Positions 1,615-43,663 of a stretch of DNA of 54,948 nucleotides are shown here, one piece after another (within the stretch, counting starts at the first letter, position 1; each line of letters begins with the position of its first letter). The stretch spans positions 1 through 54,948 of the forward strand of contig JAFMDF010000025.1 of assembly GCA_017857395.1 (NCBI GenBank), written 5' to 3'. The notes beneath the pieces are model-generated. The model did no database searches, had not been told where the DNA came from, and saw only the letters and a list, made by a program, of their open reading frames with translations. The DNA comes from Bacteroidota bacterium. Its GTDB lineage: Bacteria > Bacteroidota > Bacteroidia > Chitinophagales > Saprospiraceae. A program made the translations under genes and the position numbers.

Positions 1615-1835
1615 ATTACAAGATGACAGGATTTTTTAATAAGATTAACAGGATTTCTTTACAATAAGATTTCTTGAAAGATACACTAAGGCCTGATTAT
1701 AAAAATCTTGGAGTGTATTTCAAGCATCCAAGCGTTTTTAGAAACTAACCTATCACTTCAAGTATGGTCAAATACACATTAGTGGTTTCCCTCACTTTTA
1801 AATTTTAGATTTGTAATTTTAAATTGCTAAAACGC

Positions 1836-3236
1836 TTACCATTCGTAATGGAATGTCCCTTCTTGATCTAAGCGTTCATAGGTGTGCGAACCAAAATGAT
1901 CTCTTTGTGCTTGCACTAAATTCATAGGTAGTCTAGCACTTCTATAACTATCATAGTAAGACAAACAAGCCATTAGACAGGGAACAGGAATACCTACTTT
2001 AATCGCTTCTGTAATCACCGTTCTAGTATCTTTTTGCGTTTTATTTACCTTTTTAGCAATCTGTTCATCCATTAATAAATTGGCTAAATCACCTTGCTTT
2101 TTATAAGCTCTTCTAAAATCTTCCAATAATTTTGCTCGAACAATACAGCCGCCTCTCCAAATTCTTGCTACCCCTTCTAAATCTAAATTAAAGTTATATT
2201 CATCAGAACCATCCTTCAACATTGCCATACCTTGGGCATAAGAAACGATGAAAGAAAATAACGTCGCATTCTTTAATCTTCTGACAAAAGTCTTTTGGTC
2301 TTTTTTAATCAATCCTGCTGGCCCATTTAACACCTCCGCTGCTGCGACTCTTTCTGTTTTAAACGCAGAAACAACTCTTGCAATCACCGCTAAATCTATT
2401 GTTGGTACGGCTGCCCCTAAATCAAGTGCCTCTTGAGAAGTCCATTTTCCTGTTCCTTTTTGCTTCCCTTTATCCATGATCATATCAATCAAATCTCCAT
2501 CGCTTAAATTATCTTTAGCTTTGAAAATTTCTGCCGTTATTTCTACTAGAAATGACCGTAATTCTTTACTGTTCCAGTCTTCAAATGCGGCTTGAATCGC
2601 TGCATTATCCATTCCTAATCCTCTGCGCATGACATCATAAGCTTCTGCCAACAGTTGCATTAAGCCATATTCAATGCCATTATGCACCATTTTTACAAAA
2701 TGGCCTACTCCTCCTTCTCCTAAATAAGTCACACAAGCTTGTTTGCCTACTTTGGCAGCAACGGCTTCCATAATTGGCTTGACCTTATTATAAGCTGTTT
2801 TATTACCGCCTGGCATCATACTTGGTCCCCGTCTTGCCCCTTCTGCTCCACCTGATACACCTATTCCTAAAAAATGAATACCCTTTGGGCTTAATTCTTT
2901 TTGCCGACGCATGGTATCTTTAAAATAAGAATTACCTCCATCCATGATAATATCGCCTTTTTCTAAATGCGGCAATAAATCAGCAATCACATAATCTACT
3001 ATTTTCCCAGCAGGCACCAATAAAAAAACTCGACGTGGTTTTTCTAAGGCCCCAACAAATTCTTCTATTGTCTTCGCCCCATATATATCCCCTTCTGCAT
3101 CTTTCAAAGAATCTACCTTACTCGTATCTTTATCATATCCCGCTACTTCAAAGCCATTATCCACCATGTTCATCAAAAGATTTTTACCCATTGTTCCCAG
3201 TCCCACTAAGCCTAAATCATATTTGTTCGTACTCAT
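1836..3236 (-). CDS. gnd: 6-phosphogluconate dehydrogenase, decarboxylating
   Basis: Converts 6-phosphogluconate to ribulose 5-phosphate and CO2 with reduction of NADP+, the third step of the oxidative pentose phosphate pathway; cytosolic dimer. The 466 aa match the usual 465-480. Visible motifs are the N-terminal dinucleotide fold GLGTMGKNLLMNM, then DGGNSYFKDT, then the family signature GIGVSGGAEGARRGPSMMPG, then the catalytic segment HFVKMVHNGIEYG with Lys182. The C-terminal helical domain is complete and ends in HYEW. First gene of a likely gnd-zwf unit; the upstream 363 bp would carry its promoter, divergent from the CotH-like gene. No anomalies. Confidence 0.97.
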   Translation of the reverse strand: MSTNKYDLGLVGLGTMGKNLLMNMVDNGFEVAGYDKDTSKVDSLKDAEGDIYGAKTIEEFVGALEKPRRVFLLVPAGKIVDYVIADLLPHLEKGDIIMDGGNSYFKDTMRRQKELSPKGIHFLGIGVSGGAEGARRGPSMMPGGNKTAYNKVKPIMEAVAAKVGKQACVTYLGEGGVGHFVKMVHNGIEYGLMQLLAEAYDVMRRGLGMDNAAIQAAFEDWNSKELRSFLVEITAEIFKAKDNLSDGDLIDMIMDKGKQKGTGKWTSQEALDLGAAVPTIDLAVIARVVSAFKTERVAAAEVLNGPAGLIKKDQKTFVRRLKNATLFSFIVSYAQGMAMLKDGSDEYNFNLDLEGVARIWRGGCIVRAKLLEDFRRAYKKQGDLANLLMDEQIAKKVNKTQKDTRTVITEAIKVGIPVPCLMACLSYYDSYRSARLPMNLVQAQRDHFGSHTYERLDQEGTFHYEW

Positions 3237-3599
3237 AAATTAGTTTAAGGTTATTAAAAAACATTGAAGCTTTGTGAATAGTAATTTCAATTGCTCCTGC
3301 TTCAATAATATTAGTTATTTTGAACTGCCTAAATTCTTATCTGGCAAAGAAATGATATTTTGTGGAAACTACCTATACTTTAAGCGACTTGGCGTCTAAT
3401 TGTTCCAGAAAAACGCATCTATTTTTTAGTTAAAATTTCTATTGACAGACAGTTGATGTAAATATTTATGTATGATTTTAGCCACTATCTTTAGTTTTCT
3501 TTGTCTTTTTTAAGAAATTAGCTATATCTTATTTGCTTTGTCAATAGACTTATTAAACCATTTTTCGTTTATTATGTACAAAAATCAAAATCAAAACTT
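3237..3599. other. Intergenic divergent promoter region
   Basis: 363 bp, very AT-rich, between divergently transcribed gnd and the CotH-like gene. I see no open frame with coding character and no strong dyad. It presumably holds both promoters, but no convincing -33/-7 pair could be fixed by eye. Confidence 0.5.
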
Positions 3600-4691
3600 A
3601 TGATGTACCCCAATTTTAAAACAAAACCTGCTTCACTTATCATTGCTTTGTTCCTTGCTGTCTTTTTCTTATTGAGCAGCACTAAGGTCATGCTTGCCCA
3701 AGAAACGACCGTTATTGAAGTTGGGCCTACCCTTTTTAAAAATTTTCAAAGAAATGATATTTTAAAAATGACTTTAACAACTGCGACCAAACAGTTAGTC
3801 AACAAAAAATTTAAGGAAGAATGGCAACCGATTAAATTAAGTTTTCAAGATTCAGCAGGAACGGATATGGAGTGGGAAGCAAAAGTCAGAACAAGAGGAA
3901 ATATTCGTAAACAAGTTTGTTATTATCCACCTTTAAAATTAAAATTAAAGAAAAAATGGTTGGTTGAAAATGGTCTCGATTCTAGTTTTAATGATTTAAA
4001 ATTAGTGGTTGGTTGTAAGAAAGGAGATTTTTATGGCAAACTGGTCTTAAAAGAATACTTAGTCTATAAACTATATGAGGAATTAACAGGCATCAGTTTT
4101 AGAACCCAATTGGCAGAAATTGATTTTATAGATACCGAAAACAAATGGAAACCGTTTACAACTTATGCCTTTCTAATAGAAAATGAAGATGAGATGGCAA
4201 CTCGGTTAAATGCCAAATGTGCCAAACCTAAAAGACTCCGTTCCAAATATTTGTATGCCGACCAATTGGACAAAATGACTTTATTTGAATACATGATTGG
4301 CAATACGGATTGGTCAGCTATTGGTAGTCATAATGTTCGAATAATAAAATGTAAAGATTATTCACTTCCTCTGCCTATTGCTTATGATTTCGATTACGCA
4401 GGTTTAGTCGATGCGCCTTATGCTGTTCACGGAAAAGGCATTGACTTAGAACATGTTACCCAAAGATTGTATTTAGGAATGTGCAGAGAGAAAGGTACCT
4501 TAGAAAAACAAATTCCTTTATTTCAAGAAAAAAAGGCTGCTTTCTATAAAATTATCGAAGACTTTCCTCATCTAGCAGCTAAAGACAAAAAAACTATGAT
4601 TAATTATCTTGATGAATTTTATGATATTTTAAATAGTCCTAAGGCTTTTAGACGAAATATTGCAGAGTTATGTCGAGCAGAAGGGCGGTAA
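3600..4691 (+). CDS. Exported CotH-kinase-like protein
   Basis: 363 aa. Residues about 12-34 form a hydrophobic signal segment ending near LAQ, so the mature protein is exported. The body resembles the CotH spore-coat kinase-like fold. An RTRGN motif near residue 101 corresponds to the RGNSS-type motif. It is followed by a basic PPLKLKLKKKW segment, a central block about being able to extend a chain (FYGKLVLKEYLVYKLYEEL), and near residue 260 a GNTDWSA...HN segment and a PIAYDFDYAG segment like the DfD motif of CotH proteins. In this family the Asp residues bind metal/nucleotide. The substrate here is unknown. Monocistronic: divergent from gnd and convergent with the barrel gene, separated from it by a large dyad. 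The family assignment rests on motif resemblance only. Confidence 0.6.
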   Translation: MMYPNFKTKPASLIIALFLAVFFLLSSTKVMLAQETTVIEVGPTLFKNFQRNDILKMTLTTATKQLVNKKFKEEWQPIKLSFQDSAGTDMEWEAKVRTRGNIRKQVCYYPPLKLKLKKKWLVENGLDSSFNDLKLVVGCKKGDFYGKLVLKEYLVYKLYEELTGISFRTQLAEIDFIDTENKWKPFTTYAFLIENEDEMATRLNAKCAKPKRLRSKYLYADQLDKMTLFEYMIGNTDWSAIGSHNVRIIKCKDYSLPLPIAYDFDYAGLVDAPYAVHGKGIDLEHVTQRLYLGMCREKGTLEKQIPLFQEKKAAFYKIIEDFPHLAAKDKKTMINYLDEFYDILNSPKAFRRNIAELCRAEGR

Positions 4692-4697
4692 GATAAA

Positions 4698-4776
4698 GAT
4701 GTCAGAAGCCAGAAATTATTCAGTTAAATTACTGATTTTCATATTTTTACACTTATTAAATCTGACTTCTGACATC
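4698..4776. terminator. Long inverted repeat between convergent genes
   Basis: Arms 4698-4713 (GATGTCAGAAGCCAGA) and 4761-4776 (TCTGACTTCTGACATC) pair at 15 of 16 positions around a 47-nt AT-rich loop. The repeat sits between the stop codons of two convergent genes, the expected place for a bidirectional terminator. The loop is long, so it could also be a dispersed palindromic repeat. Confidence 0.6.
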
Positions 4777-4785
4777 TCCTATATT

Positions 4786-5625
4786 CTAAAAATCTAAAAT
4801 AGAAATCCCTACATTAAAAGGCGTCAATTGCGGTCCTTGTTCGTCCTTAAATAAATCGGTCAAGGCTAATTGTCCGTATAAGGCAAATGGACCAAAACCA
4901 ATTCTTCCAACCACTCCATAGCGAAACTTATTTAAATTAAAATCATCTTTAACCTTTATTTTATTGCCATTATCATCCTTTAATTTTTGCTTAGCACCCA
5001 ATAAAACACCACCATAAACACCACCACTTAGATAAAAAGACCGTCGCTTACCTGGAGAAATAGTCAACATTAATGGCACTTCTAAAAAAGTCGTCTTCAA
5101 TTTATTCTTTTTATATTTAGTTCCATCATCTTCAATGCTAAACGGGATGGTATCTTCCAGAATCCTAAAATCATTAGAAAATTTATACTGTTGCCAAGAA
5201 ACAGTTAGTCCATATTCTAAACCAACATGATTTTTAATAATTGGCAACCGATGTCTAATTACATGCAAGTTTAAATTTAAAGAACCGCCATACGTTTGGT
5301 CAAAATTATCTAATTCAGCAGGTAAATTAAGCGACCCATCATGAAAATAAGTACTAAAACCTATATCAATTAAACCTACTCGAAAATCATCATCCCAATT
5401 ATTGTCCCAATCATTATCCCAATTTCCTCCAAAGTGGATGCCCCAATTATGATAACGTGTCTCCTTTTTTTTCCATCTTCGCTCAAAGTCTTCATCTTTG
5501 GTTATGCTTGTATCGGTGTCTGTTTGAGTCTCCTTGTTATTGTCTTGCGCCATTAATTGGCTACCAAAACAAACCATAAATAATAAAAAGAAAAATTTAA
5601 TAAAATCTGATTTTTGTAAAGTCAT
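4786..5625 (-). CDS. Outer-membrane beta-barrel protein (PorT/OMP_b-brl type)
   Basis: 279 aa with a signal peptide (hydrophobic residues about 8-25, cleavage near LMAQ). After an acidic linker comes a short low-complexity run of alternating Trp, Asp and Asn (about residues 68-80). The remainder shows alternating amphipathic strands typical of Bacteroidota outer-membrane beta-barrel domains: GLEYGLTVSWQQYKF, LKTTFLEVPLMLTISPG, FYLSGGVYGGVLLGAKQKL, and a terminal strand ending in F. It is the last gene after an ECF sigma factor and a membrane anti-sigma-like gene on the same strand, so it is a plausible output or sensor partner of that pair. Exact function unknown. Confidence 0.7.
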   Translation of the reverse strand: MTLQKSDFIKFFFLLFMVCFGSQLMAQDNNKETQTDTDTSITKDEDFERRWKKKETRYHNWGIHFGGNWDNDWDNNWDDDFRVGLIDIGFSTYFHDGSLNLPAELDNFDQTYGGSLNLNLHVIRHRLPIIKNHVGLEYGLTVSWQQYKFSNDFRILEDTIPFSIEDDGTKYKKNKLKTTFLEVPLMLTISPGKRRSFYLSGGVYGGVLLGAKQKLKDDNGNKIKVKDDFNLNKFRYGVVGRIGFGPFALYGQLALTDLFKDEQGPQLTPFNVGISILDF

Positions 5626-27862: not shown

Positions 27863-28202
27863 AATTAGTGATGCGTTATAAATGATGAGTGATGAGTAGG
27901 GAACTCCTTTTTATTTATAGGATACGAGTAATTAAGTAGATTGTTTTTCATCTTTAAAACAAGTAATTCAGTGTTCTTTCTATAACCGAATTATTAAAAA
28001 TAAGAAAAAAAATATTTTGCTAAAAAACTAATAATCAACCTATTAAAATCAAAATAGCAACTTAATGACAAAGCTATTTAAAAATAAAAATGGGGGATAA
28101 AAAAAATTGAACTGTCTGGTGTTCGTATTCGACAAATACACAAAACAAAGTTGGCCACTTGTTTTCGCACATTTAACTAATCACCAAAACAGTTCAAAAC
28201 TT
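27863..28202. other. Intergenic promoter region
   Basis: 340 bp between the divergent GNAT and lipoprotein genes. An in-frame TTG at 28107 would add 32 residues to the lipoprotein but would put non-signal sequence before the signal peptide. No dyad, repeat or RNA gene recognised; AT-rich throughout. Confidence 0.5.
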
Positions 28203-29414
28203 ATGACGAATTTAAAAAGTTTTTTTGGATTATTCCTTATTTCCTTACTTTTCTTTACCGCTTGTAAAAAAGACCGCATTACACCTGAAACCGTAGAAAA
28301 TAATTCCCCTGAAAATATCATCAATATTACCATTGATGCCGCTACCCAAACAAGAGCCATGGCAGCAGCTACTATGGCGAATTCTCGCGATAACAGTAAT
28401 CCAGATACGACTGATTGTGGTTGCTACGATTTATTTGATGACGTTGACTTTGACGCCTCCCATAAAGTAGTGGAAGCAGCAGTTGATGCTATTTTAGCAA
28501 CACTTTCTGAGGCAGAAATAACTCGCTTATTTGAGCCTGTTTGTACCGAAGATGGCGAAATTTATGAAAGTGCTTGTATCGCCGATTGTGAAGGCATCAC
28601 TAATTACCATATTTGCTCTGAAGAAGAATTAGATGACTATTTCTTTGGAGATTTTGATTGTAATGATTTGGATAATTTAACTTTCCCTACCGAAATTGAA
28701 TTGCCTGATGGCACAACGGTCACCGTTAATAGTGAAGAAGAGTTATTTGAAGCTTTAGAAAATTGGTTTGAGGAGCATGGCGAAGATTATGAGGAAGAAT
28801 GGGAAGGCGAAGATTATGACGACGATTTTGAAGATTGCTTTACTTTAGTATACCCCATTCAAATTCTATTTCCTGGTGGAGAAACGATTAGTTATGCCAA
28901 CGAAGAAGACCTCTATACAGGTATAGAAGCTTGGTATGATATCAATCCTGAAAGTGAAGATGATCCAATGCCTGTTTATCCTTTTGACGTTTTATTAGAA
29001 GATGGAACTACCCAAACTGTCAGCAACGAAATGGAAGAAGAAGCGCTGTGGGAAACTTGTTACGGAGATATTGATTTTGATATTTGCTTTGAATTGAATT
29101 TTCCGATTACTTTGATTTATCCTGATAGTAATACAGTTGATGTAAATTCTGAAGCCGAATTATTTACTACTATAGAGGCTTATTATGAAGCGAATGAAGA
29201 TTCGGAAGAAGATATTGATGTCCAATTTCCGATCAGTATTACTTTGAGTGACGGCACTGTCCAAGCCATTAATAACGAAGAAGCATTGGAAGCTGCTTTA
29301 GAAACTTGTTTTGATGATTTGGGCACAGGTAAAATTGGGCAAATAAGTCGAAAATCTGCCTTGTCTGCTAAACGAGTTATCAAAGGGGCGGTCTTAAATG
29401 GACAGTCAAATTAA
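28203..29414 (+). CDS. Acidic-repeat lipoprotein
   Basis: 403 aa from ATG at 28203. Lipoprotein signal FGLFLISLLFFTACKKD with the lipid-attachment Cys near residue 18. After a Thr/Asn linker come Cys-containing segments (DTTDCGCYDLFDDVDFDASH, CTEDGEIYESACIADCEGI), then about four to five tandem repeats of some 50 residues (about residues 155-380). The repeats follow the pattern FP-hydrophobic-LxDG-hydrophobic-NxEEEL, ending in WY/F followed by an acidic tail; examples are FPTEIELPDGTTVTVNSEEE and FPISITLSDGTVQAINNEEA. Very rich in Asp and Glu, so probably Ca-binding or a surface stalk. The function is unknown. Strong terminator at 29627. Confidence 0.8.
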   Translation: MTNLKSFFGLFLISLLFFTACKKDRITPETVENNSPENIINITIDAATQTRAMAAATMANSRDNSNPDTTDCGCYDLFDDVDFDASHKVVEAAVDAILATLSEAEITRLFEPVCTEDGEIYESACIADCEGITNYHICSEEELDDYFFGDFDCNDLDNLTFPTEIELPDGTTVTVNSEEELFEALENWFEEHGEDYEEEWEGEDYDDDFEDCFTLVYPIQILFPGGETISYANEEDLYTGIEAWYDINPESEDDPMPVYPFDVLLEDGTTQTVSNEMEEEALWETCYGDIDFDICFELNFPITLIYPDSNTVDVNSEAELFTTIEAYYEANEDSEEDIDVQFPISITLSDGTVQAINNEEALEAALETCFDDLGTGKIGQISRKSALSAKRVIKGAVLNGQSN

Positions 29415-30276: not shown

Positions 30277-33200
30277 TTAATCCTCCACTGCCAAATTCAT
30301 TGTCTTAAATATAATTTGGCCATCTTCGGTTACGCCTTCTACCCGAACCTCATAAGTCGTAGGTGTGTCCGCTGCATAAAAGGAAAGTTGAGTGGGTTCA
30401 TCTTTTGTTAATTGAATATTAGGCGCCCAATGAATAGCTGTTCGCAAATCGGGGGCTTGATGAATGGGCAAGTTTTTCGAATAATCGGGTGCGTAGAATG
30501 CTCTTGCATTTATATAGCCTGGATGGTCTACATTTAGAATCCCGCTCTCTAATTTTATTTGTAAACTTCTAGGAATTTTTCGAGTGGTAATCGAAATGCA
30601 GGAGCATTTTCTATCAAAAAAAATATAATCAATCCAGTCTGCGGTTAGAGATAAGAATCGGGCTGGATTAGACCCATTTCGGTCTGCCCCCACCCCATTA
30701 ATGGAAATAGATAAAGGCTGTTTCGTACCATCTTTTTTAAGTAAATAAAATTTGCCCGTCTGAAAATCTATTTCATAATTAAATCGAGGGTATAAATACG
30801 ACAAAAGGCTTGTCCCGTTTTTTTGCGGATGCACCCAATCCATCTGGTTTAAATCATAAGTATTACCAAATTTAAACGATTTTTTTCGCTTGGCTTTGAC
30901 GACAATTGCTTGGTCAAAGTCTATTTTCCAAATACTATTATAAATAGAATCTAAGGTGTTCGATTGTTTTTCATACCCTAAATACTTTTCCAACCTATGG
31001 CTATCTAATTCTCTTCTTACTTTTTTTCTTAAAGGTTGAATCGCTGGTTTGTCGGTAGCTGCAAAATGAAAATCAATCATTCGCTCCCCTTTCATTTTCA
31101 TGGTTTCGGTACTATTATCTAAACTATTTTTTCGGTTTTTAATTCGACCTTGAATAATAAAAGAAATGGAATCTAAATAAGGCAAATTTTGAAAATTAAA
31201 ATTACCAAATTCATCAGTTGACTGCGTTTCATAGATAAAATCTTTGTCTAAAGAAGTCAACATCACTTGGGTTGGCAACCGTTTATCGGGATTTTTCTTT
31301 TCAGTTGTGTAGCCTTTTAAAGAATAGCCTGTTTCTGGTAAAAATGCCACCGATGGCTTTTCGGTTGCTACGATATCTGCCCATTTAAACCGTCGCCATC
31401 CGTAGGTCATCAGGTATAAATCTAACCAATAACGTTTGGATTTATCCATCGCTTGCAGGTAAAAATTAGCGTTTGGAATGGCATTCATTAAATCCGAATT
31501 TAGCAATAAATAACTTGGTAAATTATCTATTGAGGGCGCATAATTAACTACCGATTGGTCGGTTACCGAAACTGATACATTCGCGCTTGTTGCTATTTGG
31601 GAAGTAGATAAGGTCAACTCGATTTTCTCTCTCGGTTCGTATTTATTTTTAGTCCTATTTACATTCAATAAGGTTGAATCTATGCCAACTTCATTAAAAA
31701 TTAATCGCTCCGCAATAGGCAAATGTTTACTATTGAATAGGGTAAAGTGGGCGATGCCCGTTGGTAAAGTTGCCTTATTAAAAACAATAGGCGTTGTACT
31801 ATCAATTTCTTCTAGAAAACAGAAAATTTGCCCCCTTACATGTCCTACTAAATAAACCCCATCTAATAACGCCTCTTTCGTTGCGTGAATCTCTATAAAT
31901 AACTTCGCAGCATCTCGATTATTGACCCGCATTACCATTCCTTTTGGTTGAACCTTAGGCAATTCAAATTGAAAAACCTCCCCTTCGTATTCCAAAGTGG
32001 CCGTATAAGCTGTTCCTGCAATTGGGGTCAAATTAAACAAGCCTAATCCTTTATGTTGGGTCTTTATTTTTGTAATTAATTGACCTTTTTCATCTAAAAT
32101 AGTGCCTGTAATAGGTTTTGCTTGCCCAGTCTCGTCTGCTATTTGAAAAGCAACGTTATTCGATAAGCTACTAACTAATGCGCCGCCTTCTGGAAAGAAA
32201 TTTAGGGTTAATTTAGCCCTTTGTGTAGTTTGGCTTACTTTTAAAGCATCCCTTTCTTGTTTAATACTATAATCATACACCCAAAATGATTTTTGAAAAA
32301 AAAATTCGGGTGCTTGATTCCGCATGTGTTGGGTATAGGCTCGAATTTGATACTGCCCAGCTACATTTGTGCTATTAAATCTAAAATTGCCATCCATTAC
32401 TTTCTCCTTATGCAATGTCCAAGATTTAGTAATTTCACCAGTTGGGTCAATTAAATCTACGTAAACGACCTTACTCAAAGCCTTATCGCTATGATTATGC
32501 GCATTCAATAAATAAGCCTTAAACCAAATACTTTCTGTCAGGCTATAAAAGGGTTTGTTTAAATGTACATATACTTTTTCTTGTGGTAATTCATTGATAC
32601 TTTTTGCCAATTCGCTGACCACATCTTCTGCTTCTTTTTCTACAGTGATTGGTCGGGTGAAATTATATTCCATAGGCATCAAATTCGCTAACCTTCTACC
32701 TGTCCAATAGCCTACTTCAACAATCTCTTTAGGATTCAATATCTCCCCTGAATGGTCTAAAACAATTTGCCCCTTTTTAGCATGTAACAAACAGGTAGCA
32801 TAATTATTTATTTTAGCCGATTGCCCCCATTCCGTGACTATTTTTTTATTAGAAAAAGCGAAAAAATTATCCGTCAATAAGGTATCTTGAAATTGACCTC
32901 GGAGAATTATCAAACTATCCATTGTTAGGTGAGTAAAATGAATCACTTGTTGATTGTCATCCAAAATCGCTTCCCCAAAAGGAAACTGTTTACGATCCAA
33001 GTTTCCTGTTAATAAAGAACGGAAAAAATATTTTTTTGACCGCTGATACGTCTTTTTTCGCCGCTTATCAATTTTTAGCGCATTCCTGTGCTTCTTAATA
33101 GCTAAAGGAGTTTTTTTATCTTCAAAATACACCTTTCCAATATAATCAATATGGTCTTCCTCGGTTCTAAATGCTTCTAAATAAAAACGCAATTGATACC

Positions 33201-34032
33201 CCAAGGATGGATTATAAATGGATAAATAATCTACCGCCTCTGCCAACAAAACACCATCTTTCTCCTGAAACCAAACCGCTTCTGGATTCAGTAATTTCAT
33301 ACCTCTACGATTATTGCCTTCCCCAAAAAGTGCGGTAGTAAATTGCTTCAACCACTGCTTTCTTTTTTTGGATTTCATTCGTTTTGCTTTTACTTTCACT
33401 TCTGCAAAAGCTAAATTCTTGGGTGTTAATGGTATCTCTTCGGGCAAACTAGCAATATCCGCCAAAGAAAAAGTCAGCGTTTGATAATTTAGATGCGTAA
33501 TCACCAATTCTCCTCTTGAAAAATCGCCCACTGCTAATTGAAAGAAACCCGATAAATCACTTGTGGTGCTAATAGAGGTATTCCGAATAAAAATAAAGGC
33601 ATCTGAAACAGGCAGGTTTTCTTCGGCATCTATTAAAATACTGCTCAATAGTTTTTGTATTTTTTTCTTAGATTTTGGCTTTTTAGCTGGTTCTTTTTGA
33701 ATAGGAAGATTGGTTGGCCGCTCATACCCTTTTTGATAAATAACATAATATTTCTCTTCAAATCGGTCATAACTAAGTCCTACTTTTGTCAATAATCTTT
33801 CAATGGCCACTTCTGAGGTTTCGGTTTCCTTTAGTTCAAAAAGGACTTGCTCTTTTGATAATAAATCAGCGTCATAAGAGAAAAATACTTGGTACTGCTC
33901 GCTCAAAGATTCCAAAATGGTCGTTAATGAACGAGTCTGTGCTTCTATATTTTGGATAAATAATAGTCCCAAAATGATAACCCAGCATCGATAATTTAAC
34001 TTAAACAAGTCTATTTTATTTTTTTGCCACAT
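30277..34032 (-). CDS. STN/carboxypeptidase-like/MG2-domain envelope protein (non-barrel)
   Basis: 1251 aa from ATG at 34032; an earlier in-frame start at 34071 adds 13 basic residues. Order: signal peptide (WVIILGLLFIQNIEAQ); STN domain (LTTILESLSEQYQVFFSYDA, about 33-105); carboxypeptidase-like beta-sandwich (SDAFIFIRNTSISTTSDLSG); a DUF5686-like block (LKQFTTALFGEGNNRRG region, then GYQLRFYLEAFRTEEDH); an MG2 macroglobulin domain (EKVYVHLNKPFYSLTESIWF, RFNSTNVAGQYQIRAYTQHM); more beta-rich domains with LYLMTYGWRRFKWAD; and a degenerate plug-like end (LSISINGVGADRNG). No beta-barrel follows. STN domains normally touch FecR, whose gene is upstream and overlaps by 17 bp. Probably the surface partner of that FecR/sigma pair. 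Confidence 0.8.
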   Translation of the reverse strand: MWQKNKIDLFKLNYRCWVIILGLLFIQNIEAQTRSLTTILESLSEQYQVFFSYDADLLSKEQVLFELKETETSEVAIERLLTKVGLSYDRFEEKYYVIYQKGYERPTNLPIQKEPAKKPKSKKKIQKLLSSILIDAEENLPVSDAFIFIRNTSISTTSDLSGFFQLAVGDFSRGELVITHLNYQTLTFSLADIASLPEEIPLTPKNLAFAEVKVKAKRMKSKKRKQWLKQFTTALFGEGNNRRGMKLLNPEAVWFQEKDGVLLAEAVDYLSIYNPSLGYQLRFYLEAFRTEEDHIDYIGKVYFEDKKTPLAIKKHRNALKIDKRRKKTYQRSKKYFFRSLLTGNLDRKQFPFGEAILDDNQQVIHFTHLTMDSLIILRGQFQDTLLTDNFFAFSNKKIVTEWGQSAKINNYATCLLHAKKGQIVLDHSGEILNPKEIVEVGYWTGRRLANLMPMEYNFTRPITVEKEAEDVVSELAKSINELPQEKVYVHLNKPFYSLTESIWFKAYLLNAHNHSDKALSKVVYVDLIDPTGEITKSWTLHKEKVMDGNFRFNSTNVAGQYQIRAYTQHMRNQAPEFFFQKSFWVYDYSIKQERDALKVSQTTQRAKLTLNFFPEGGALVSSLSNNVAFQIADETGQAKPITGTILDEKGQLITKIKTQHKGLGLFNLTPIAGTAYTATLEYEGEVFQFELPKVQPKGMVMRVNNRDAAKLFIEIHATKEALLDGVYLVGHVRGQIFCFLEEIDSTTPIVFNKATLPTGIAHFTLFNSKHLPIAERLIFNEVGIDSTLLNVNRTKNKYEPREKIELTLSTSQIATSANVSVSVTDQSVVNYAPSIDNLPSYLLLNSDLMNAIPNANFYLQAMDKSKRYWLDLYLMTYGWRRFKWADIVATEKPSVAFLPETGYSLKGYTTEKKNPDKRLPTQVMLTSLDKDFIYETQSTDEFGNFNFQNLPYLDSISFIIQGRIKNRKNSLDNSTETMKMKGERMIDFHFAATDKPAIQPLRKKVRRELDSHRLEKYLGYEKQSNTLDSIYNSIWKIDFDQAIVVKAKRKKSFKFGNTYDLNQMDWVHPQKNGTSLLSYLYPRFNYEIDFQTGKFYLLKKDGTKQPLSISINGVGADRNGSNPARFLSLTADWIDYIFFDRKCSCISITTRKIPRSLQIKLESGILNVDHPGYINARAFYAPDYSKNLPIHQAPDLRTAIHWAPNIQLTKDEPTQLSFYAADTPTTYEVRVEGVTEDGQIIFKTMNLAVED

Positions 34033-35056
34033 AGTAAATTTGGTTGTCTTTCTTCTCAATTTCCACCCCAAGGGTTCGTTCCAAAATAGGTAGTATCACT
34101 TCAAGGTTTTTCATAGGAATTGCCAAAGTTTTTCGTTCTGCCAATAAACTTTTTCGTTGAACCTCAAAAGAACACCCGTAGATTTCTTCTAATCGTTGTA
34201 AGATTGTTGCTACCGTTTGCTCAGATAAAATCAAGGTCCCATCTTTCCAAGAAGTCTTTTCTTTTTTGATAATTTGTGGACTCACTTTTAATGCCGCTTG
34301 CCCTTTTGTGTAATCAATAAAATCATTGGGTTTTAAAGCTAATTGTTGAGTTTTTGTTGTCAATTGGATTTCACCTTCCTCTAAAAAAACCTGTGTATTT
34401 TCCCCCTTTGATTTCACATTAAATTGCGTCCCTAATACTTCTATTGCCAAAGCATCGGTCACTACCTTAAATTTCGCTTGAGTAGCGGGCTTTTTCTCCA
34501 CTTCAAAAAAAGCTTCTCCTTTTAACCAAACTTGTCGGTCTGCTCCAATTGCCCAATCTCTATTTAATTTCAATTCCGCATTCGCATTCAAATGAACAGT
34601 AGATCCATCTGGTAATTGTAATTTTTTCCATTCACCAAACTCCGTTGTATGCACGACCCAATTATCTCCCGTTTCCGTGTCATTCGCCGCCAAAAACCAA
34701 AGTCCAACACTAAGCAATGCTGCAATAGTTGCCGCAATCATCCATCTGCGTTGAACTTTTGGTTTTGTCAGCGTCCGTTGTTGTTCTGCCTTATCTAAGC
34801 GAACAATATTCGTCAATAATTTGGCGAAATTTGGGTCAGGCGCAATAGAGTCGGGTAACTCCTTTTCGTAATATTGATTGAGTTCTAAAATTATTTTTTG
34901 GGCTTTTTCTAATTTTTCCCGCTCGGTTGGATTGGCTTTTATATAGGCTTCCCAAAGCTGATTTTTTTCTTCCGTTGGTTGACTTACCCATTGCCTAAAG
35001 TCTGGATCGTCTATTAGTGTCTCGAAAGTGAATTGCTGATATTTTTTTAAGGACAT
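34016..35056 (-). CDS. FecR-type anti-sigma factor
   Basis: 346 aa from ATG at 35056; an extended frame reaches 35218 but its 54 extra residues look like translated repeat DNA. The cytosolic N-terminal region (QQFTFETLIDDPDFRQWV), a single transmembrane helix at about residues 103-120 (WMIAATIAALLSVGLWFLAA), then the FecR domain (VHTTEFGEWKKLQLPDGSTV, LNANAELKLN, LKGEAFFEV, ALAIEVLGTQFNVKS) and a C-terminal STN-contact domain (VATILQRLEEIYGCSFEV) are all visible. It transmits the surface signal to its ECF sigma factor (next gene upstream). Overlaps the start of the MG2 gene by 17 bp, implying translational coupling. Confidence 0.92.
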   Translation of the reverse strand: MSLKKYQQFTFETLIDDPDFRQWVSQPTEEKNQLWEAYIKANPTEREKLEKAQKIILELNQYYEKELPDSIAPDPNFAKLLTNIVRLDKAEQQRTLTKPKVQRRWMIAATIAALLSVGLWFLAANDTETGDNWVVHTTEFGEWKKLQLPDGSTVHLNANAELKLNRDWAIGADRQVWLKGEAFFEVEKKPATQAKFKVVTDALAIEVLGTQFNVKSKGENTQVFLEEGEIQLTTKTQQLALKPNDFIDYTKGQAALKVSPQIIKKEKTSWKDGTLILSEQTVATILQRLEEIYGCSFEVQRKSLLAERKTLAIPMKNLEVILPILERTLGVEIEKKDNQIYYVAKK

Positions 35057-35444
35057 ACTAGTTGGATTTTCTGTAGCGCCAAGCTCTGCTCGGTGAATTA
35101 TATTTCGGATGCTTCTTCCCCCACGAATTTGCCTCCCCACGAATTTTTTATATCGAATGCAATCTAACACAATTAATAAAGTACCACGGATATTTTTTAT
35201 CTCGGATTTTAAAACCATCTATCAACTAATGAAGATTGCCTATTTTTTGTAACCCTAAAAAAGTATTTTTTTTTAAAATAATAAATCATCCAAGGATTCT
35301 GCATTACATACTACTCGGACAAGAATGTCCAAGCTACGGTAAACTATCCGTGGTATTAAAAATCCGTGGGAAAAACACCTGAGATATATACATTCTTAAT
35401 AAAAAATTCGTGGTATTTTATTAATTCGTGGGGAAGACCATTCG
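35057..35444. repeat. Intergenic mosaic of CGTGGGG/CCCCACG repeat fragments
   Basis: 388 bp between the FecR and sigma genes. It contains several copies of short motifs CCCCACGAATTTT, TTCGTGGGG, ACCACGGATATTTTTTATC and AATCCGTGGGAAAAA in both orientations. An arm (35311-35336) resembles one half of the long inverted repeat at 42937-43018. Same motif core as in the 48-bp element. No coding content seen; the apparent frame upstream of 35056 is translated repeat. Confidence 0.55.
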
Positions 35445-36041
35445 TTAATACAGGAAGGAAGTCATTTTATTCCGCAAAACCGTCAAAGCCCGATAAACAT
35501 AATTCCGAGCCACCTGCGCATTCACCGATAAAATCTCCGCAATCTCTTTATAACTGCGATTTTCATAAAAACGGAGGTATAAGACTTCTTTTTGATAAGC
35601 AGGTAAATCATGGATAGCAGTATCCACTAAGGCTTTATTAATAGCCTGTACTTCTTTTGCTAAATAATCTGTTTCTGGAGAAACTTGGTGCGGGTCTATA
35701 TTCGGCGTATTTCTTTGTAAATAACGTTGTTGGGATTTTGCTTTTGCTTGCTGGGCTTGCAATTGCTGTTGTAAATTTCGGCGGATAGATTGGTAGAGAT
35801 AGGCTTCAAAATTGTCGTTTAAATTGACTTTTCGATAATTTTTGGCTAACCAAATAAAGAAATCTTGAATCGTTCCTTCTACTAGCGTTTGTTCATGTTT
35901 GCCTGCTATTTGGAGGCCGAAATGATATAATTTTTGGTAGGTCGTGGTATATATTTCGGAGATGGCATTTGGGTCGCCTTCGGCTAAATTCGCCGCTAGT
36001 TGTTGGGTTTTTTCAGTATGCCTTGGTGATTGTTTGATAAT
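35445..36041 (-). CDS. ECF sigma factor (FecI-like), start irregular
   Basis: About 199 codons of homologous sequence. Region 2: LAANLAEGDPNAISEIYTTT, FGLQIAGKHEQTLVEGTIQD, FFIWLAKNYRKVNLNDNFEA. Region 4: IHDLPAYQKEVLYLRFYENR, SYKEIAEILSVNAQVARNY. The first canonical start in frame is a TTG at 35762, deep inside. Upstream the frame is open to a stop at 36054-36056 but contains no ATG, GTG or TTG; ATT at 36041 is a possible start. An ATG at 36087 opens a different frame that stops at 36013, so either a +1 frameshift or a rare start is involved. Neighbour of the FecR gene, its likely partner. Confidence 0.75.
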   Translation of the reverse strand: MIKQSPRHTEKTQQLAANLAEGDPNAISEIYTTTYQKLYHFGLQIAGKHEQTLVEGTIQDFFIWLAKNYRKVNLNDNFEAYLYQSIRRNLQQQLQAQQAKAKSQQRYLQRNTPNIDPHQVSPETDYLAKEVQAINKALVDTAIHDLPAYQKEVLYLRFYENRSYKEIAEILSVNAQVARNYVYRALTVLRNKMTSFLY

Positions 36042-36305
36042 GAAGGTTATTGTTTATTTCCTCAAAGTACGTTGTTTTTAAGTTCATTTAATAATCCGAG
36101 GACGCAAGATAATCAGGTATACTAATTATAAAGAAAAAAACTTCGATTATGTTGTAATTTAGGAGAACCTATTCCTATCAAAACATATTGGTATAAATTA
36201 TTTGCTCAAGAACTTACACTTTTTCCTAACCAATCTTTACCTTCGCCAAACTAATTGATTTTCCATAATACACGCCATTTGAAAATTATAAATTAAAAAT
36301 TACAA

Positions 36306-38960: not shown

Positions 38961-41645
38961 TCAGAACTTTATACTATACCGCAAAGAAGGAAAAATAGGC
39001 AATCCAGGGAAATCTTCATTTTCAAAAGTCTCTCCATTGCCATCTAAATTTTTGACCCGAATAGCAAAAAGAGGATTCGTTCGGTTATAAACATTTTTTA
39101 GGCCAAAAGTAAAAAAATGATCTACATTTTTTCTAGGCCAATGCCAATTGAAACTAATATCCAGTTGGTGATTAGCAGGCAAGCGGAAAGTATTTAAAGG
39201 ACCATCTGAGCCAAGCAAGTCTAAGTCAAAACCGTCGAAACTAGTACCGTCGCCATACACTTCAATAAATCTAGGCGTCGTGTATTGTCCCGAGCCATAC
39301 GTCCAAGTGGCAAACACATTGAATTTAGGCGTAAATTCTTGGCTTAGGCCAATCTTTATCACATGTCTTCGATTGTATCGAAAGGGGAACCGTTGGTCAT
39401 CGCTCAAACCATCAAATCGACGGGTTGCTTTGGATAAGGCATAATTGATATACCCATTGGTTTTACCTTTTGTTCTCTTTAAGGACGCTTCTATCCCATA
39501 ATTCCAACCTTCTCCAAAAGTAACCTCATTTTCCCAATCAAATACTTCTTCTGTACCTGAAAGCACAGAATTGACCCCTGCTCGATAAGTAATTAAGTTA
39601 TCCAATTTTTTAAAATAAGCTTCCGTACTAAAAGCAAAAGATTGAGGCAATTTCCAATCTGTTCCTATTAAAAATTGATTGGCTACTTGCGGGCGAACTT
39701 TTTTAGTAGAAGGCACCCATAAATCAAAAGGCATACTGACTCCCGCAGGGCTTAGTACGTGTAAAAATTGCCCCATTCTGCTATATGCAGCATAAATAGT
39801 TCCTGATGGATGAATTTGATATTGTACCGAAAGTCTAGGCTGAAAGGACATCCAAGCAGCATTTGCCGCTGTAAAAACAGCATTGTGAAAACCCAATTGG
39901 GCGCTTAATTTATCAGTAAATTTTATATCATCCTCTACATAAAAATTAAGTTCTGTAGCATAGTAAGGAATGGTTGTAAAACTATCCGAAGCGATGTAAC
40001 CTTCCTCTAGATTAAATTCATCGGCCTCTAAATCTTCTAATTCCAGCAACTCGAACGTTGGTGCAAAAATTCGTCCTAGAATACCTCCACCAAATTCGAT
40101 ATGATGTTTGGGATTAGGGATATAATCAAAATCAATTTTAAGGGCTATATCTTGAATATCGGAATCAAAAATATATTGGTCTACACTAAAAAGATTTCCT
40201 TCCATCTTTTCAAATTCTGTAGCACCTACTGTGAATAATTGAAAACCAAATTCGCTAAAGGTAGCCGTCATATTGGAAAATAGTTTATTATTCCAAATTC
40301 TATTCCAACGGGTAGAAATAATTGTATTTCCCCAATTGATGTTCACAAAATCACTTTGTTCAGAAAGCGTTATTAAAGGCTCCGTCTCCTCGTTATCGAT
40401 TACAAAATCTTCATCAAAAGAACTAATGGATTGCAAATTATCTGCTCCTTTATAAAAACTTATATAAACCTTATCTTTATTCGAAAACGTATGATTCAAT
40501 TTAGCATTAATATCATAAAAATAATAGCCAATTTTATCCACATTACCCGTTCCTGGTTCTTCTTCTAATACCACATTAAATAAAGGGTCTAAATGCGTTC
40601 TTCTACCCGATACAAAAAAAGAAGTTTTCTCTTTTTTAATCGGCCCTTCGGCAAAAAGACTGGTGGCAAATAAGCTAACCGCCCCCCCAAATTTAAACTC
40701 CTTATCATTGCCTTCCTTGGTCTGTATATCCACTACAGAAGATAAACGTCCACCATACTTTGACGGGAATTTCCCTTTATACAACCGAGCATTTTTAACA
40801 ATGCTTTCATTAAAAATAGAGAATAATCCCAAGGCATGAGATGAGTTATAAACTGGTACACCATCCAATAAAACTAAATTTTGGTCGGCTTCTCCCCCTC
40901 TAACATGCATACCGCCAAAACTTCCTGCGCCTGCTTCCACCCCAGGCAAAGTTTGGAAATATCGGATAATATCAGGCTCCCCTCCAATAGAAGGCATTTT
41001 TGCTAATTTTCCAGAAGCATAGTTCGGTGCATCTGTTACAGATAAGCCATCTTTTATTTGATATTTGCTATCCACTACTACGACTTCCGCTAAGGTAATT
41101 GCCGCTTTTAAGGGCACATTAAAATGTAAATTTTTCTTAATATTAATTTGGTAGGTCTTCGGATTAAATCCTAAATAAGAGAAGCTTAAAGCTGCTTTTC
41201 CTCTTGATATAGACAGGCTATAAAAACCATATTCATTCGTGGTTGTTCCTTTTCCTGAAATATTATCATACACATTTGCAGCTACTAATCTTTCTCCTGA
41301 CAAACTATCTTCTAAAAAACCGCTAATCGTAAAAACCGGTGGTGGTTTCTCATAAAGGGCAACCCGATTGTTTTCCCATTTAAAGCCAATTTCTGTCTCT
41401 TTTAGGCAAGCAGTTAATAAATATTTTACGGTTTTATTGGTATGTTGGAAAGTAATTTTTTGGTCATCTGAGAACAAACGACTTTGGAAAGAAACGCTAA
41501 TATCTGCCTTTTCACATAATGATAAAAGGGCGTCTGAAATCGGTATATTGTCTGCTGAAAAATCCATGCGCATATCTAACTTTGATTGTCCCATAGCGGT
41601 GAACGCTATGAAAAGACCAGTTAGTATTAACAGGATTCTTTGCAT
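38961..41645 (-). CDS. TonB-dependent receptor with STN domain (FecA-like)
   Basis: 894 aa: signal peptide (ILLILTGLFIAFTAMGQ), STN domain (residues about 35-95, ISVSFQSRLFSDDQKITFQH), carboxypeptidase-like domain (about 105-190, ANVYDNISGKGTTTNEYGFY), plug (about 210-320, GGMHVRGGEADQNLVLLDGV), then a long 22-stranded-type beta-barrel ending in the aromatic FPSLRYSIKF. It imports a substrate such as a siderophore, peptide or sugar and signals via STN to FecR. FecR and an ECF sigma factor are the next two genes upstream on the same strand. The M14 peptidase converging with it hints at a peptide substrate, but that is inference. Confidence 0.95.
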   Translation of the reverse strand: MQRILLILTGLFIAFTAMGQSKLDMRMDFSADNIPISDALLSLCEKADISVSFQSRLFSDDQKITFQHTNKTVKYLLTACLKETEIGFKWENNRVALYEKPPPVFTISGFLEDSLSGERLVAANVYDNISGKGTTTNEYGFYSLSISRGKAALSFSYLGFNPKTYQINIKKNLHFNVPLKAAITLAEVVVVDSKYQIKDGLSVTDAPNYASGKLAKMPSIGGEPDIIRYFQTLPGVEAGAGSFGGMHVRGGEADQNLVLLDGVPVYNSSHALGLFSIFNESIVKNARLYKGKFPSKYGGRLSSVVDIQTKEGNDKEFKFGGAVSLFATSLFAEGPIKKEKTSFFVSGRRTHLDPLFNVVLEEEPGTGNVDKIGYYFYDINAKLNHTFSNKDKVYISFYKGADNLQSISSFDEDFVIDNEETEPLITLSEQSDFVNINWGNTIISTRWNRIWNNKLFSNMTATFSEFGFQLFTVGATEFEKMEGNLFSVDQYIFDSDIQDIALKIDFDYIPNPKHHIEFGGGILGRIFAPTFELLELEDLEADEFNLEEGYIASDSFTTIPYYATELNFYVEDDIKFTDKLSAQLGFHNAVFTAANAAWMSFQPRLSVQYQIHPSGTIYAAYSRMGQFLHVLSPAGVSMPFDLWVPSTKKVRPQVANQFLIGTDWKLPQSFAFSTEAYFKKLDNLITYRAGVNSVLSGTEEVFDWENEVTFGEGWNYGIEASLKRTKGKTNGYINYALSKATRRFDGLSDDQRFPFRYNRRHVIKIGLSQEFTPKFNVFATWTYGSGQYTTPRFIEVYGDGTSFDGFDLDLLGSDGPLNTFRLPANHQLDISFNWHWPRKNVDHFFTFGLKNVYNRTNPLFAIRVKNLDGNGETFENEDFPGLPIFPSLRYSIKF

Positions 41646-41775
41646 AAAATCTTTTATATTTCGGGTGATACTATTATTTGATAACTTCGGGTTATCCAGT
41701 AATTTTAACTAATAGAAAACGTTTCTCATTAGATTAAACTCAATTTTTCCAGTAACAAGAAGTTAATGGAAAAAA

Positions 41776-42846
41776 TTACTTTTTACAAGTTCCACCAATT
41801 AACTCAAAAGTAGTGTTCCCTGATGGTTTTACCTGCATGTCAAATGTTCTGGCAATTGTTTGCAAAATAGTGGTAATACCATCTTCCATTTTTTCTCTAC
41901 CAGAATATTCACAAGTATTCAAATTCGCATTTGATAATTTAATATCTACTTCAAATTGTTTATTTAAGTCTTCTAGTACTTCTTTTAATGGAGTATCTTT
42001 AAATAATAACCTGCCACTCTGCCAAGCAATTTCATTCATATCTTCTTCCACTAACTCTTCGATGGTGTTATCGACAGCGTTATAAACTCCTTTTTCATTA
42101 GGGGTCAACTCCACTTGTTTATCTCCTTCCTTACTTTCAAACCTTACTTTACCTGTTTTCACCACTACTTCTGTCACGCTTTCTGCCGTTATAGCCCTGA
42201 CATTAAACGACGTTCCCAATACGGTCACTTTTGATTTATTGGTGTTGATAATAAAAGGTTGGTTTGGATTTTTAGCTACCTCAAAAAAAGCTTCTCCAGT
42301 TAATTCCACCATTCTATTTTCTCCTTTAAAGCCAGCAGGATAAGTCAATTGACTATTACCATTTAACCATACTATAGTACCATCTGCTAAGGTAATTGTT
42401 TTGTGTTCTTTGTGTTTGGTATTCGCCGCTAACATTTCTACGTCTCCTAAAATGGGTTGACTAGTAAACCAAAATCCTACCGCCAATGCCACCGCCGCTG
42501 CTGCTGCCCAGCCTATCCATCGACTAGCCAATTTATTCTTTTTTAAACCAACGACTTTACCTATAGGTTGATGGGCTATTCTTAAATTATCTTGAACTGT
42601 TCTTACAATATCTTCATCTTGCTGGATTCGTTGTTGCAGCAATTTAAAATCAGCAGCCACATCTACTTCTATGTCGCTTGGCGCTTCGTATTGTTCGGTT
42701 AATTGCCAATCTTTTTCTACTTGCTTAAATAGCTTTTCGTTATCGGCGGATTGACTTGTCCAAACATCCAACATCGACTGTTCTTCCAGCGAAATATCGC
42801 CTTTGAGTTTTTTAAAAAGTAGCGTTATGTAATTGTCTTTATTCAT
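41776..42846 (-). CDS. FecR-type anti-sigma factor
   Basis: 356 aa; ATG at 42846 is preferred to one five codons earlier. N-terminal cytosolic sigma-binding region (YITLLFKKLKGDISLEEQSM), transmembrane helix at about residues 112-132 (WIGWAAAAAVALAVGFWF), FecR domain (HKTITLADGTIVWLNGNSQL, LTGEAFFEVAKNPNQPFII, KVTVLGTSFNVRA) and C-terminal STN-contact domain (DTPLKEVLEDLNKQFEVDI). Regulates the upstream ECF sigma factor in response to the TonB receptor at 38961. Paralogous in plan to 34016. Confidence 0.95.
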   Translation of the reverse strand: MNKDNYITLLFKKLKGDISLEEQSMLDVWTSQSADNEKLFKQVEKDWQLTEQYEAPSDIEVDVAADFKLLQQRIQQDEDIVRTVQDNLRIAHQPIGKVVGLKKNKLASRWIGWAAAAAVALAVGFWFTSQPILGDVEMLAANTKHKEHKTITLADGTIVWLNGNSQLTYPAGFKGENRMVELTGEAFFEVAKNPNQPFIINTNKSKVTVLGTSFNVRAITAESVTEVVVKTGKVRFESKEGDKQVELTPNEKGVYNAVDNTIEELVEEDMNEIAWQSGRLLFKDTPLKEVLEDLNKQFEVDIKLSNANLNTCEYSGREKMEDGITTILQTIARTFDMQVKPSGNTTFELIGGTCKK

Positions 42847-42936
42847 TTTTATAATGGTCATTAGTCATTGGTCGCCAATCATTAGTGTTCTTAACTAATG
42901 ACTAATAATGGAGAACCAATTTTTATGATTACTTTT

Positions 42937-43018
42937 AAAGTAGCTTGGGCTTCCTGCCCGAGTAATGTTTTTTAATGTGTTTTATTTTGCTACTCGGGCT
43001 GGAAGCCCAAGCTACTTT
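42937..43018. repeat. Long near-perfect inverted repeat (28-bp arms)
   Basis: The core arm 42940-42964 (GTAGCTTGGGCTTCCTGCCC, then GAGTA) pairs with 42991-43015 (TACTCGGGCTGGAAGCCC, then AAGCTAC) at 24 of 25 positions. The stem extends by three more pairs to 42937 and 43018, around a 26-nt T-rich loop. It lies between the sigma and FecR genes, which are co-directional. Could act as an attenuating hairpin, or be a palindromic dispersed repeat; see the related arm at 35311. Confidence 0.8.
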
Positions 43019-43072
43019 CTACTTACTTAGACAGTTATAAATGAAGTTTCCCCCATTGCGAAGGATTATATT

Positions 43073-43663
43073 TTAAAAAATGTTTAGTAATAAAACCAAT
43101 AAACCTAAAGCATCATACTTTTCCACGGCTAATCGAACAATCTTTAAAGCCTTAGTTATTTGATTTTCAATGGTTTTAGTAGAAATCTCTAATTTAGCTG
43201 CAATTTCTTTATGCGATAATTTTTCGTACCGACTTAACATAAAAATAGCTTTACACTTAGCAGGTAAACTATCAATGGCCTTATTCAGCGCTGATTTTAA
43301 ATCTTGCCCTTCCAATATTTTTTGTGCCGAAACTGCTTGATCAGGCGTTTGGGCGTCAAAGTTTTCATCCCCAAAGTCAAATCGCTTTTGGGTTTTAATA
43401 TAATTTAAGGAACGATTGACAACTGCTCGGCGCAAGTAAGATTTTAGGGAAGATTGAATGTCTAATTGTACTCGCTTTTTCCATAATTCAAAAAAGACAT
43501 CTTGTACTAGGTCTTTGGCTTTTTCATTATCTCCTGTAATATTATACCCCGTTACGACTAAATACTTATAATAGTGATTAAATATTCGTTGCAAAGCAAT
43601 TTCCTTGCCCGCTTTCAGCGATTGCAGCCATTCTTTTTCTTCGACGGAAATGGGTTGGAGCAT
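43073..43663 (-). CDS. ECF sigma factor (FecI-like)
   Basis: 196 aa. Region 2: LQRIFNHYYKYLVVTGYNIT, DNEKAKDLVQDVFFELWKKR. Region 4: IDSLPAKCKAIFMLSRYEKL, SHKEIAAKLEISTKTIENQI. The usual Bacteroidota ECF length of 175-200 aa. The next genes on the same strand are FecR (226 bp downstream of its stop, with a large inverted repeat between) and the STN-containing TonB receptor, forming a sigma-FecR-receptor cascade. Start ATG at 43663. Confidence 0.95.
   Translation of the reverse strand: MLQPISVEEKEWLQSLKAGKEIALQRIFNHYYKYLVVTGYNITGDNEKAKDLVQDVFFELWKKRVQLDIQSSLKSYLRRAVVNRSLNYIKTQKRFDFGDENFDAQTPDQAVSAQKILEGQDLKSALNKAIDSLPAKCKAIFMLSRYEKLSHKEIAAKLEISTKTIENQITKALKIVRLAVEKYDALGLLVLLLNIF

Follow-up and report, generated by a model that had tools for sequence, protein, structure and literature searches.

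Signaling through FecR-type anti-sigma factors is usually described as a readout of TonB-dependent transporters. The FecIRA, PupIRB and FoxIRA cell-surface signaling systems combine an extracytoplasmic function (ECF) sigma factor, a single-pass FecR-type anti-sigma factor with an STN-like C-terminus and an adjacent STN-bearing partner, a TonB-dependent beta-barrel receptor. For PupR and FoxR, excerpts of PMC7186176 and PMC11637429 describe a contact between the STN-like domain and the STN of the receptor. Here, we analyzed the contig JAFMDF010000025.1 (54,948 nt; hereafter called the window) from a Saprospiraceae genome (GCA_017857395.1, labeled G000), which carries on its minus strand, all within 30277–36053, an ECF sigma frame, a fecR gene and a gene for a protein of 1251 amino acids (aa), in this order. 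The arrangement matches the systems above, but the STN-bearing partner is no recognizable TonB-dependent receptor. Its STN domain is followed by a CarboxypepD regulatory-like (CarbD) domain, an unnamed domain, a macroglobulin (MG)-type scaffold and a degenerate plug-like end. We favor, with some reserve, the view that in this sigma/FecR cassette a periplasmic macroglobulin-type protein has replaced the usual large TonB receptor.

Four other kinds of proteins share parts of this architecture. The SusC and other large TonB receptors of Saprospiraceae sigma/FecR operons belong to the same FecR and STN branch and also continue from STN into a CarboxypepD domain, but end in plug and barrel where the window protein has the unnamed domain, the MG scaffold and the degenerate plug. 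Bacterial alpha-2-macroglobulin (A2M) and complement C3 have the MG2-type domain and a matching fold, whereas the window protein carries STN, CarbD and plug-like modules, and the CxEQ thioester motif is absent from it and from 15 relatives scanned. The MG2-plug proteins of Bacteroidia, encoded either as a CarbD protein plus an 825-aa MG2-plug protein or as one fusion of ~1140 aa, resemble it in everything from CarbD on, but lack the STN. Finally, proteins with STN and LA_2272-like repeats likewise stand beside FecR and continue from STN into a part other than a TonB receptor, which consists of repeats, perhaps with a small barrel, in place of the MG scaffold.

The stop codon of fecR (34016–34018) lies within the focal gene, whose ATG is at 34030–34032, giving an overlap of 17 bp. 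The sequence-only reading, made before any database search, had named FecR with this overlap and an ECF sigma factor next to it; the coordinates agree, and the cluster recurs in a second genome, G005 (see below). The FecR protein passed the Pfam cut-offs for FecR (63.9 bits) and for the C-terminal, STN-like FecR_C (35.8 bits), and a transmembrane scan gave a single candidate segment at about residue 107. Its start at an internal ATG is our own choice; the longest open reading frame (ORF), from 35218, has 400 aa. We equate FecR_C with the STN-like contact domain of PupR and FoxR. The sigma frame scored above cut-off for Sigma70_r4_2 (45.5 bits) and TIGR02937 (70.6 bits) and below it for Sigma70_r2 (18.6 bits) and TIGR02985 (76.9 bits). 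A candidate start codon, ATT or ATC, lies at 36036–36041, and the G005 sigma frame has a TTG near the same position. The odd start may reflect either a rare start codon or a sequence error.

Pfam and NCBIfam scans of the 1251-aa protein were reported down to E ≤ 1. NCBIfam gave nothing, and all Pfam matches stayed below their cut-offs: CarbopepD_reg_2 (31.1 bits), CarboxypepD_reg (25.9), MG2 (23.7), Surface-like_ins_dom (16.6), A2M_BRD (16.4) and FecR_C (13.4). No match at E ≤ 1 was obtained for Pfam STN, Plug, barrel or DUF5686, and a DUF5686-like module, earlier suggested, is thus dropped. The STN assignment is nevertheless well supported by profile comparison. The orthologue in G005 passed the FecR_C cut-off (27.0 bits, cut-off 24.4) and reached 17.0 bits for STN (cut-off 28.4), and a two-row profile of the window and G005 sequences found, at E 5e-21, the STN of L070, a SusC receptor with sigma/FecR as neighbors, followed by those of four more large receptors at E 6e-14 to 4e-12. 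The carboxypeptidase-like module of the earlier reading was recovered as well, with CarbopepD_reg_2 matching residues 134–192 just below the cut-off of 32.2 bits. No 19-residue window anywhere in the protein reached a Kyte–Doolittle (KD) value of 1.6.

That the STN sits in front of a macroglobulin-type scaffold was also upheld, as judged from profiles and models. The Pfam MG2 score falls short of its cut-off of 32.8 bits and that of the bait-region model A2M_BRD of 22.7 bits, while a profile of the 1251-aa protein and nine relatives matched the PDB entries of complement C3 (E 4e-4) and A2M (E 1e-3). With an AlphaFold2 model of residues 31–1230, which is of low confidence (predicted local distance difference test, pLDDT, 59.5; predicted TM-score, pTM, 0.32), Foldseek returned C3, C4 and C5 as well as the Salmonella and E. 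coli A2M, with a best E of 4e-11 at whole-chain TM-scores of ~0.1. VIA aligned the model with an A2M MG2 domain (Z 12.7, root-mean-square deviation 2.4 over 100 aa); this comparison covered mainly model residues 453–844, and families missing from its list may still be present.

The plug-like end aligned with six TonB receptors in hhalign (probability 77.6, E 1.9e-5, 58 columns) and becomes recognizable through two relatives passing Pfam Plug (L176, 25.6 bits; L177, 51.4 bits; cut-off 23.9), in line with the degenerate plug proposed at first. The segment behind it may be A2M-like, by comparison with a distant relative, L179, whose A2M segment scored 28.4 bits in Pfam (cut-off 21). A hidden barrel was rejected: Pfam had no PF00593 match at E ≤ 1, the C-terminus aligns with that of MG2-plug relatives, and no barrel was seen in two low-confidence structure models (pLDDT 59.5 and 53.1), as the sequence-only reading had anticipated. 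The Pfam scan calls for caution, as PF00593 also fails to detect L065, a SusC receptor, at E ≤ 0.1; this receptor, however, passes the full-length NCBIfam SusC model, which the 1251-aa protein does not reach at E ≤ 1. Searching for similar folds with the model of the C-terminus returned nothing at E ≤ 0.001, which is uninformative given the poor model. The Plug protein of type 9 secretion, Fjoh_1759 (taken from an excerpt of PMC9127263), was considered as a relative, but no such PDB chain was among the matches of the ten-protein profile at E ≤ 10. Because neither barrel nor lipobox nor secretion-sorting domain was found in the 1251-aa protein, we predict it to be periplasmic. The 'cell-surface' sensing initially proposed is thereby unlikely, and the protein is better read as a FecR partner in the periplasm.

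The triad is no singular occurrence. Among nine genomes of the genus (own included, some incomplete), the complete sigma-FecR-STN arrangement was seen in the window and on contig C84 of G005. The window and G005 proteins are 65% identical over residues 10–497, with 56% in the STN (43/77), 75% in CarbD and 70% in the unnamed domain; FecR is 56% identical and sigma 60% (121 of 201 positions). Where fecR and the STN gene overlap by 17 bp in the window, a gap of 18 bp separates them in G005, and the MG fragment of the truncated G005 protein still matched at E 2e-7. At fourfold sites in identical V, P, T, A or G residues, 57 of 71 differ, and despite these changes the triad recurs, which is beyond chance.

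Relatives of the rest of the protein are far more widespread. Scoring the two best candidates per genome, we found matches to some part of the protein in 139 of 398 genomes of the family (E ≤ 1e-30) and in 111 of 395 genomes of the class (E ≤ 1e-15). Among the matches listed, those extending across the STN came from G000 and G005 only. A match in G022 (contig C141) to residues 29–132 turned out to be the STN of a SusC receptor and not an STN-MG2 protein. STN-less fusions that start at CarbD, of ~1110–1155 aa, appeared in nine family genomes among the matches listed, with further ones in G151 (cut by the contig end) and in G743, outside the family. In G000 itself, on contig C18, split homologues lie adjacent to each other, a 375-aa protein of CarbD plus unnamed domain and an 825-aa MG2-plug protein. 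A scan of named genomes returned nine loci, six in Saprospiraceae, two in Lewinella and one in Flavilitoribacter nigricans. At the nine STN-less fusion loci, no FecR was found within 6.8–14 kb of sequence per locus; one locus had a sigma match ~4 kb away. Similarly, neither an STN (E ≤ 0.05) nor a FecR (E ≤ 1e-3) was found at six loci (L176–L181) and for 20 more MG2 proteins (L182–L201, frames of 871–964 aa); L180 has a sigma gene upstream and L196 a weak sigma match downstream.

To place the FecR and STN parts, we compared them with those of other sigma/FecR operons. In a tree of 91 FecR proteins, the window and G005 sequences were sisters (100) inside a clade of 18 rows (Shimodaira–Hasegawa-like approximate likelihood ratio test, SH-aLRT, 98). 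Besides this pair, the clade holds 14 FecR proteins encoded next to TonB receptors of at least 970 aa, one next to a contig-cut receptor and one at a contig edge. A 40-row tree, built from 33 of the 36 rows of the wider clade (leaving out L161, the short L164 and L169) and seven of the 55 other rows, gave bootstrap/SH-aLRT values of 99/98 for the 18-row clade and 100/100 for the pair, and joined the pair with L070 and four more at 90/89. The tree label 'SusC' denotes a receptor of at least 970 aa and is carried by rows L166, L075 and L103 outside the clade by length only. Nine of the 14 clade receptors pass the NCBIfam SusC cut-off; L064, L125, L137 and L148 are other large TonB receptors, and L070, read over its first 464 aa, passes the SusC signature and reaches 352.6 of 368.25 bits for the SusC family. 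Among the surveyed partners, the eight best non-orthologue matches of the STN profile were large receptors of this clade and the ninth was the cut receptor. The CarbD domain, on the other hand, scored 25–59 bits against nine fusions and 22.5 bits against the best receptor.

FecR and STN thus appear to come from operons that encode large TonB receptors, for the most part SusC, and everything from CarbD on from the STN-less fusion family. As FecR and STN group with the receptors and CarbD with the fusions, the focal gene is most plausibly a chimera whose junction lies between STN and CarbD, at about residues 107–128, the stretch least conserved between window and G005 (4 of 13 aligned positions).

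Table 1 Features of the sigma-FecR-STN-MG locus in the window.
Feature	Coordinates	Strand	Length or residues	Basis and remarks
STN-CarbD-MG-plug protein (focal gene)	30277..34032	-	1251 aa	Frame open throughout
FecR-type single-pass anti-sigma factor	34016..35056	-	346 aa	Counted from internal ATG
ECF sigma-70 factor	35445..36053	-	202 aa	Stop-to-stop frame
Signal-peptide region	33940..34032	-	Residues 1-31	Read directly; no lipobox seen; cleavage site putative
STN domain	33715..33945	-	Residues 30-106	Two-row profile; FecR_C match of the orthologue
CarboxypepD regulatory-like domain	33397..33648	-	Residues 129-212	Pfam PF13715
Unnamed domain	32653..33396	-	Residues 213-460	
Macroglobulin-type MG scaffold	31411..32586	-	About residues 483-874	MG2 at 486-573
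Degenerate TonB-plug-like domain	30574..30828	-	About residues 1069-1153	hhalign and relatives
C-terminal A2M-like segment (candidate)	30280..30540	-	Residues 1165-1251	By-eye likeness to the L179 segment

To see which partners FecR proteins have in general, we searched 30 genomes, own included, and obtained 90 FecR loci in 22 of them. The downstream partner was a TonB receptor in 65 loci (six of them contig-cut), a protein with STN and LA_2272-like repeats in nine and an STN-MG2 protein in two; seven loci at a contig edge and seven with another neighbor are kept in the count of 90. The LA_2272-like group comprises L074 (2375–3904), L130, L132, L133, L136, L141, L143, L163 and L173. L074, the single member scanned, has the repeats at 43.3 bits in NCBIfam (cut-off 25), and the other eight were grouped by their similarity to it (E 8e-33 or better); these eight match, at 39–66 bits, another STN profile that was partly built from themselves. 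With 11 of 90 loci in and near the own genome, STN partners other than TonB receptors seem neither unique nor rare. The earlier notion of a non-transporter partner therefore holds for this locus, but its assumed narrowness does not.

The domain order, the chimeric origin, the recurrent triad and the lack of a recognizable barrel are the starting point for a mechanistic model. In it, the STN of a large TonB receptor would have been joined, in front of CarboxypepD, to a pre-existing barrel-less fusion protein. The product would be exported and would remain periplasmic or sit on the inner side of the outer membrane, where its STN would pair with the STN-like C-terminal domain of FecR, keeping FecR intact and sigma silent. 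An event on the MG scaffold, either binding of a partner or polymer or a proteolytic cut, would then remove or alter the STN-FecR contact, upon which FecR would be degraded and sigma would transcribe its targets. The contact and its protective sign are presumed by analogy to PupB/PupR and FoxA/FoxR, and the nature of the signal on the scaffold is a guess. A sensor role of the 1251-aa protein is plausible, and MG2 scaffolds found directly behind sigma genes elsewhere speak in its favor.

Several observations weigh against this reading. Two genomes alone carry the STN-MG triad, and in one of them, G005, the protein is cut off by the contig end after 492 aa, right where its MG part starts. The CarbD contrast is not shared by three distant fusions (16.1 bits for L181; L176 and L177 not listed). 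The sigma frame has no ATG, GTG or TTG before codon 98 and no ordinary start in the window, and the STN part of the AlphaFold2 model has a pLDDT below 50.

An unlikely but coherent alternative makes the MG protein an effector, that is, a sigma-regulated product in which the STN is a hitch-hiker setting the basal stability of FecR. The STN-less fusions without a nearby FecR would fit, as they indicate a job of the MG part of its own; yet the STN was kept together with its FecR in both genomes although the linker diverged. It is still less probable that the plug-like end inserts into the barrel of a separate gene product, the two forming a TonB-type receptor with its barrel in trans. The plug homology seen through relatives is compatible with such a split receptor, as is an E-V-x-V-like stretch just before the plug in several relatives, whose resemblance to a TonB box is our own reading. 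However, the plug of the 1251-aa protein and those of the nearest fusions lack a YGxxGxxGVI-like segment that several other relatives kept, and the sole barrel gene near the locus encodes a TonB receptor with its own FecR. A misassembled or decaying chimeric gene, which the fragmented assembly (631 contigs) and the sigma frame without a usual start codon might suggest, is very improbable, since the frame is open over 1251 codons and an artefact at the junction is largely refuted by G005, with the same STN-CarbD junction and neighbors at 65% protein identity and with most fourfold sites changed.

Besides the sigma-FecR-STN arrangement, we identified MG2 proteins that directly follow sigma genes. 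At L179 in G056 (1525–5509, minus strand), a sigma-like gene, just below the Pfam cut-off, stops 1 nt before the gene of a 1117-aa protein with a front of ~80 aa and one predicted transmembrane segment, followed by MG2 (50.5 bits) and A2M, both above cut-off. Among 298 genomes of the order, all five found of genus g49 had a sigma-like gene at the same place, the one in L203 also scoring under the Pfam cut-offs. G213 has a more divergent pair of this kind, with sigma above cut-off and an overlap of the two frames by up to 29 bp. Long MG2 proteins with a sigma gene (above cut-off) directly upstream were further found in G011 (L023) and G246 (L226). In total, a sigma gene directly before an MG2 protein with a short, cytoplasmic-looking front and one predicted transmembrane segment occurred in eight genomes; the loci are L179, L202–L206, L180 (1267–5149, plus strand), L023 and L226. 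Three fronts were scanned and had no Pfam domain in their first ~150 residues; their position and topology suggest an anti-sigma domain.

It is conceivable, though we regard it as doubtful, that in this order of Bacteroidota macroglobulin scaffolds generally serve as a class of envelope sensors for ECF sigma factors and were recruited on two or more occasions. Equally tentatively, one recruitment would have yielded the STN-bearing periplasmic partner of FecR (window and G005), and another would have supplied single-pass anti-sigma factors with their periplasmic part (five g49 genomes, G213, G011 and G246). This parallel is weakened by the 27 long-MG2 loci checked upstream (two pairs overlap): sigma was present in two (L023 and L226), while 18 of the other 25 had no ORF of at least 80 aa ending within 200 bp upstream and seven had some other ORF. 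L027, moreover, lacks an upstream ORF despite its similar front. If the parallel is true and, as happens in complement, the MG part is cut or gripped, such sensors would report periplasmic proteolysis or partner binding.

With its traceable history of domain swapping, the locus indicates that a complement-like scaffold can acquire the STN/FecR/sigma output module. Such rewiring suggests that envelope circuits may sense things other than transported nutrients, and it makes testable whether STN-FecR signaling can do without a barrel, TonB or transport. For the MG2-plug proteins of Bacteroidia, for which we found no described role in the open-access literature, sensing would be a first plausible function. 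As the sequence-only reading had assumed for the architecture, we found no account of it in that literature; judged by title and start of abstract, and with subscription papers mostly outside, no description of STN-MG2 proteins or macroglobulin-linked ECF sigma factors was recognized among the papers listed.

Within the locus, the sigma-FecR gap (35060–35444) holds an interspersed repeat, stretches of which recur at 53 or more further sites of the genome (40 of 218 candidates scored). Several copies form close inverted pairs, and the element looks like a repetitive extragenic palindrome (REP) or a miniature inverted-repeat transposable element (MITE). A promoter comparison upstream of sigma gave nothing claimable. 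On the other side of the focal gene, the plus strand (28107–29414) encodes an acidic protein of 435 aa with weak matches to Kazal-type and fimbrial (Mfa1) domains, all below cut-off. Beyond the sigma frame, an M14 peptidase gene on the plus strand separates the triad from an ordinary sigma-FecR-TonB receptor cassette (38961–43663, minus strand), consisting of sigma (43073–43663), fecR (41776–42861) and the receptor gene (38961–41645).

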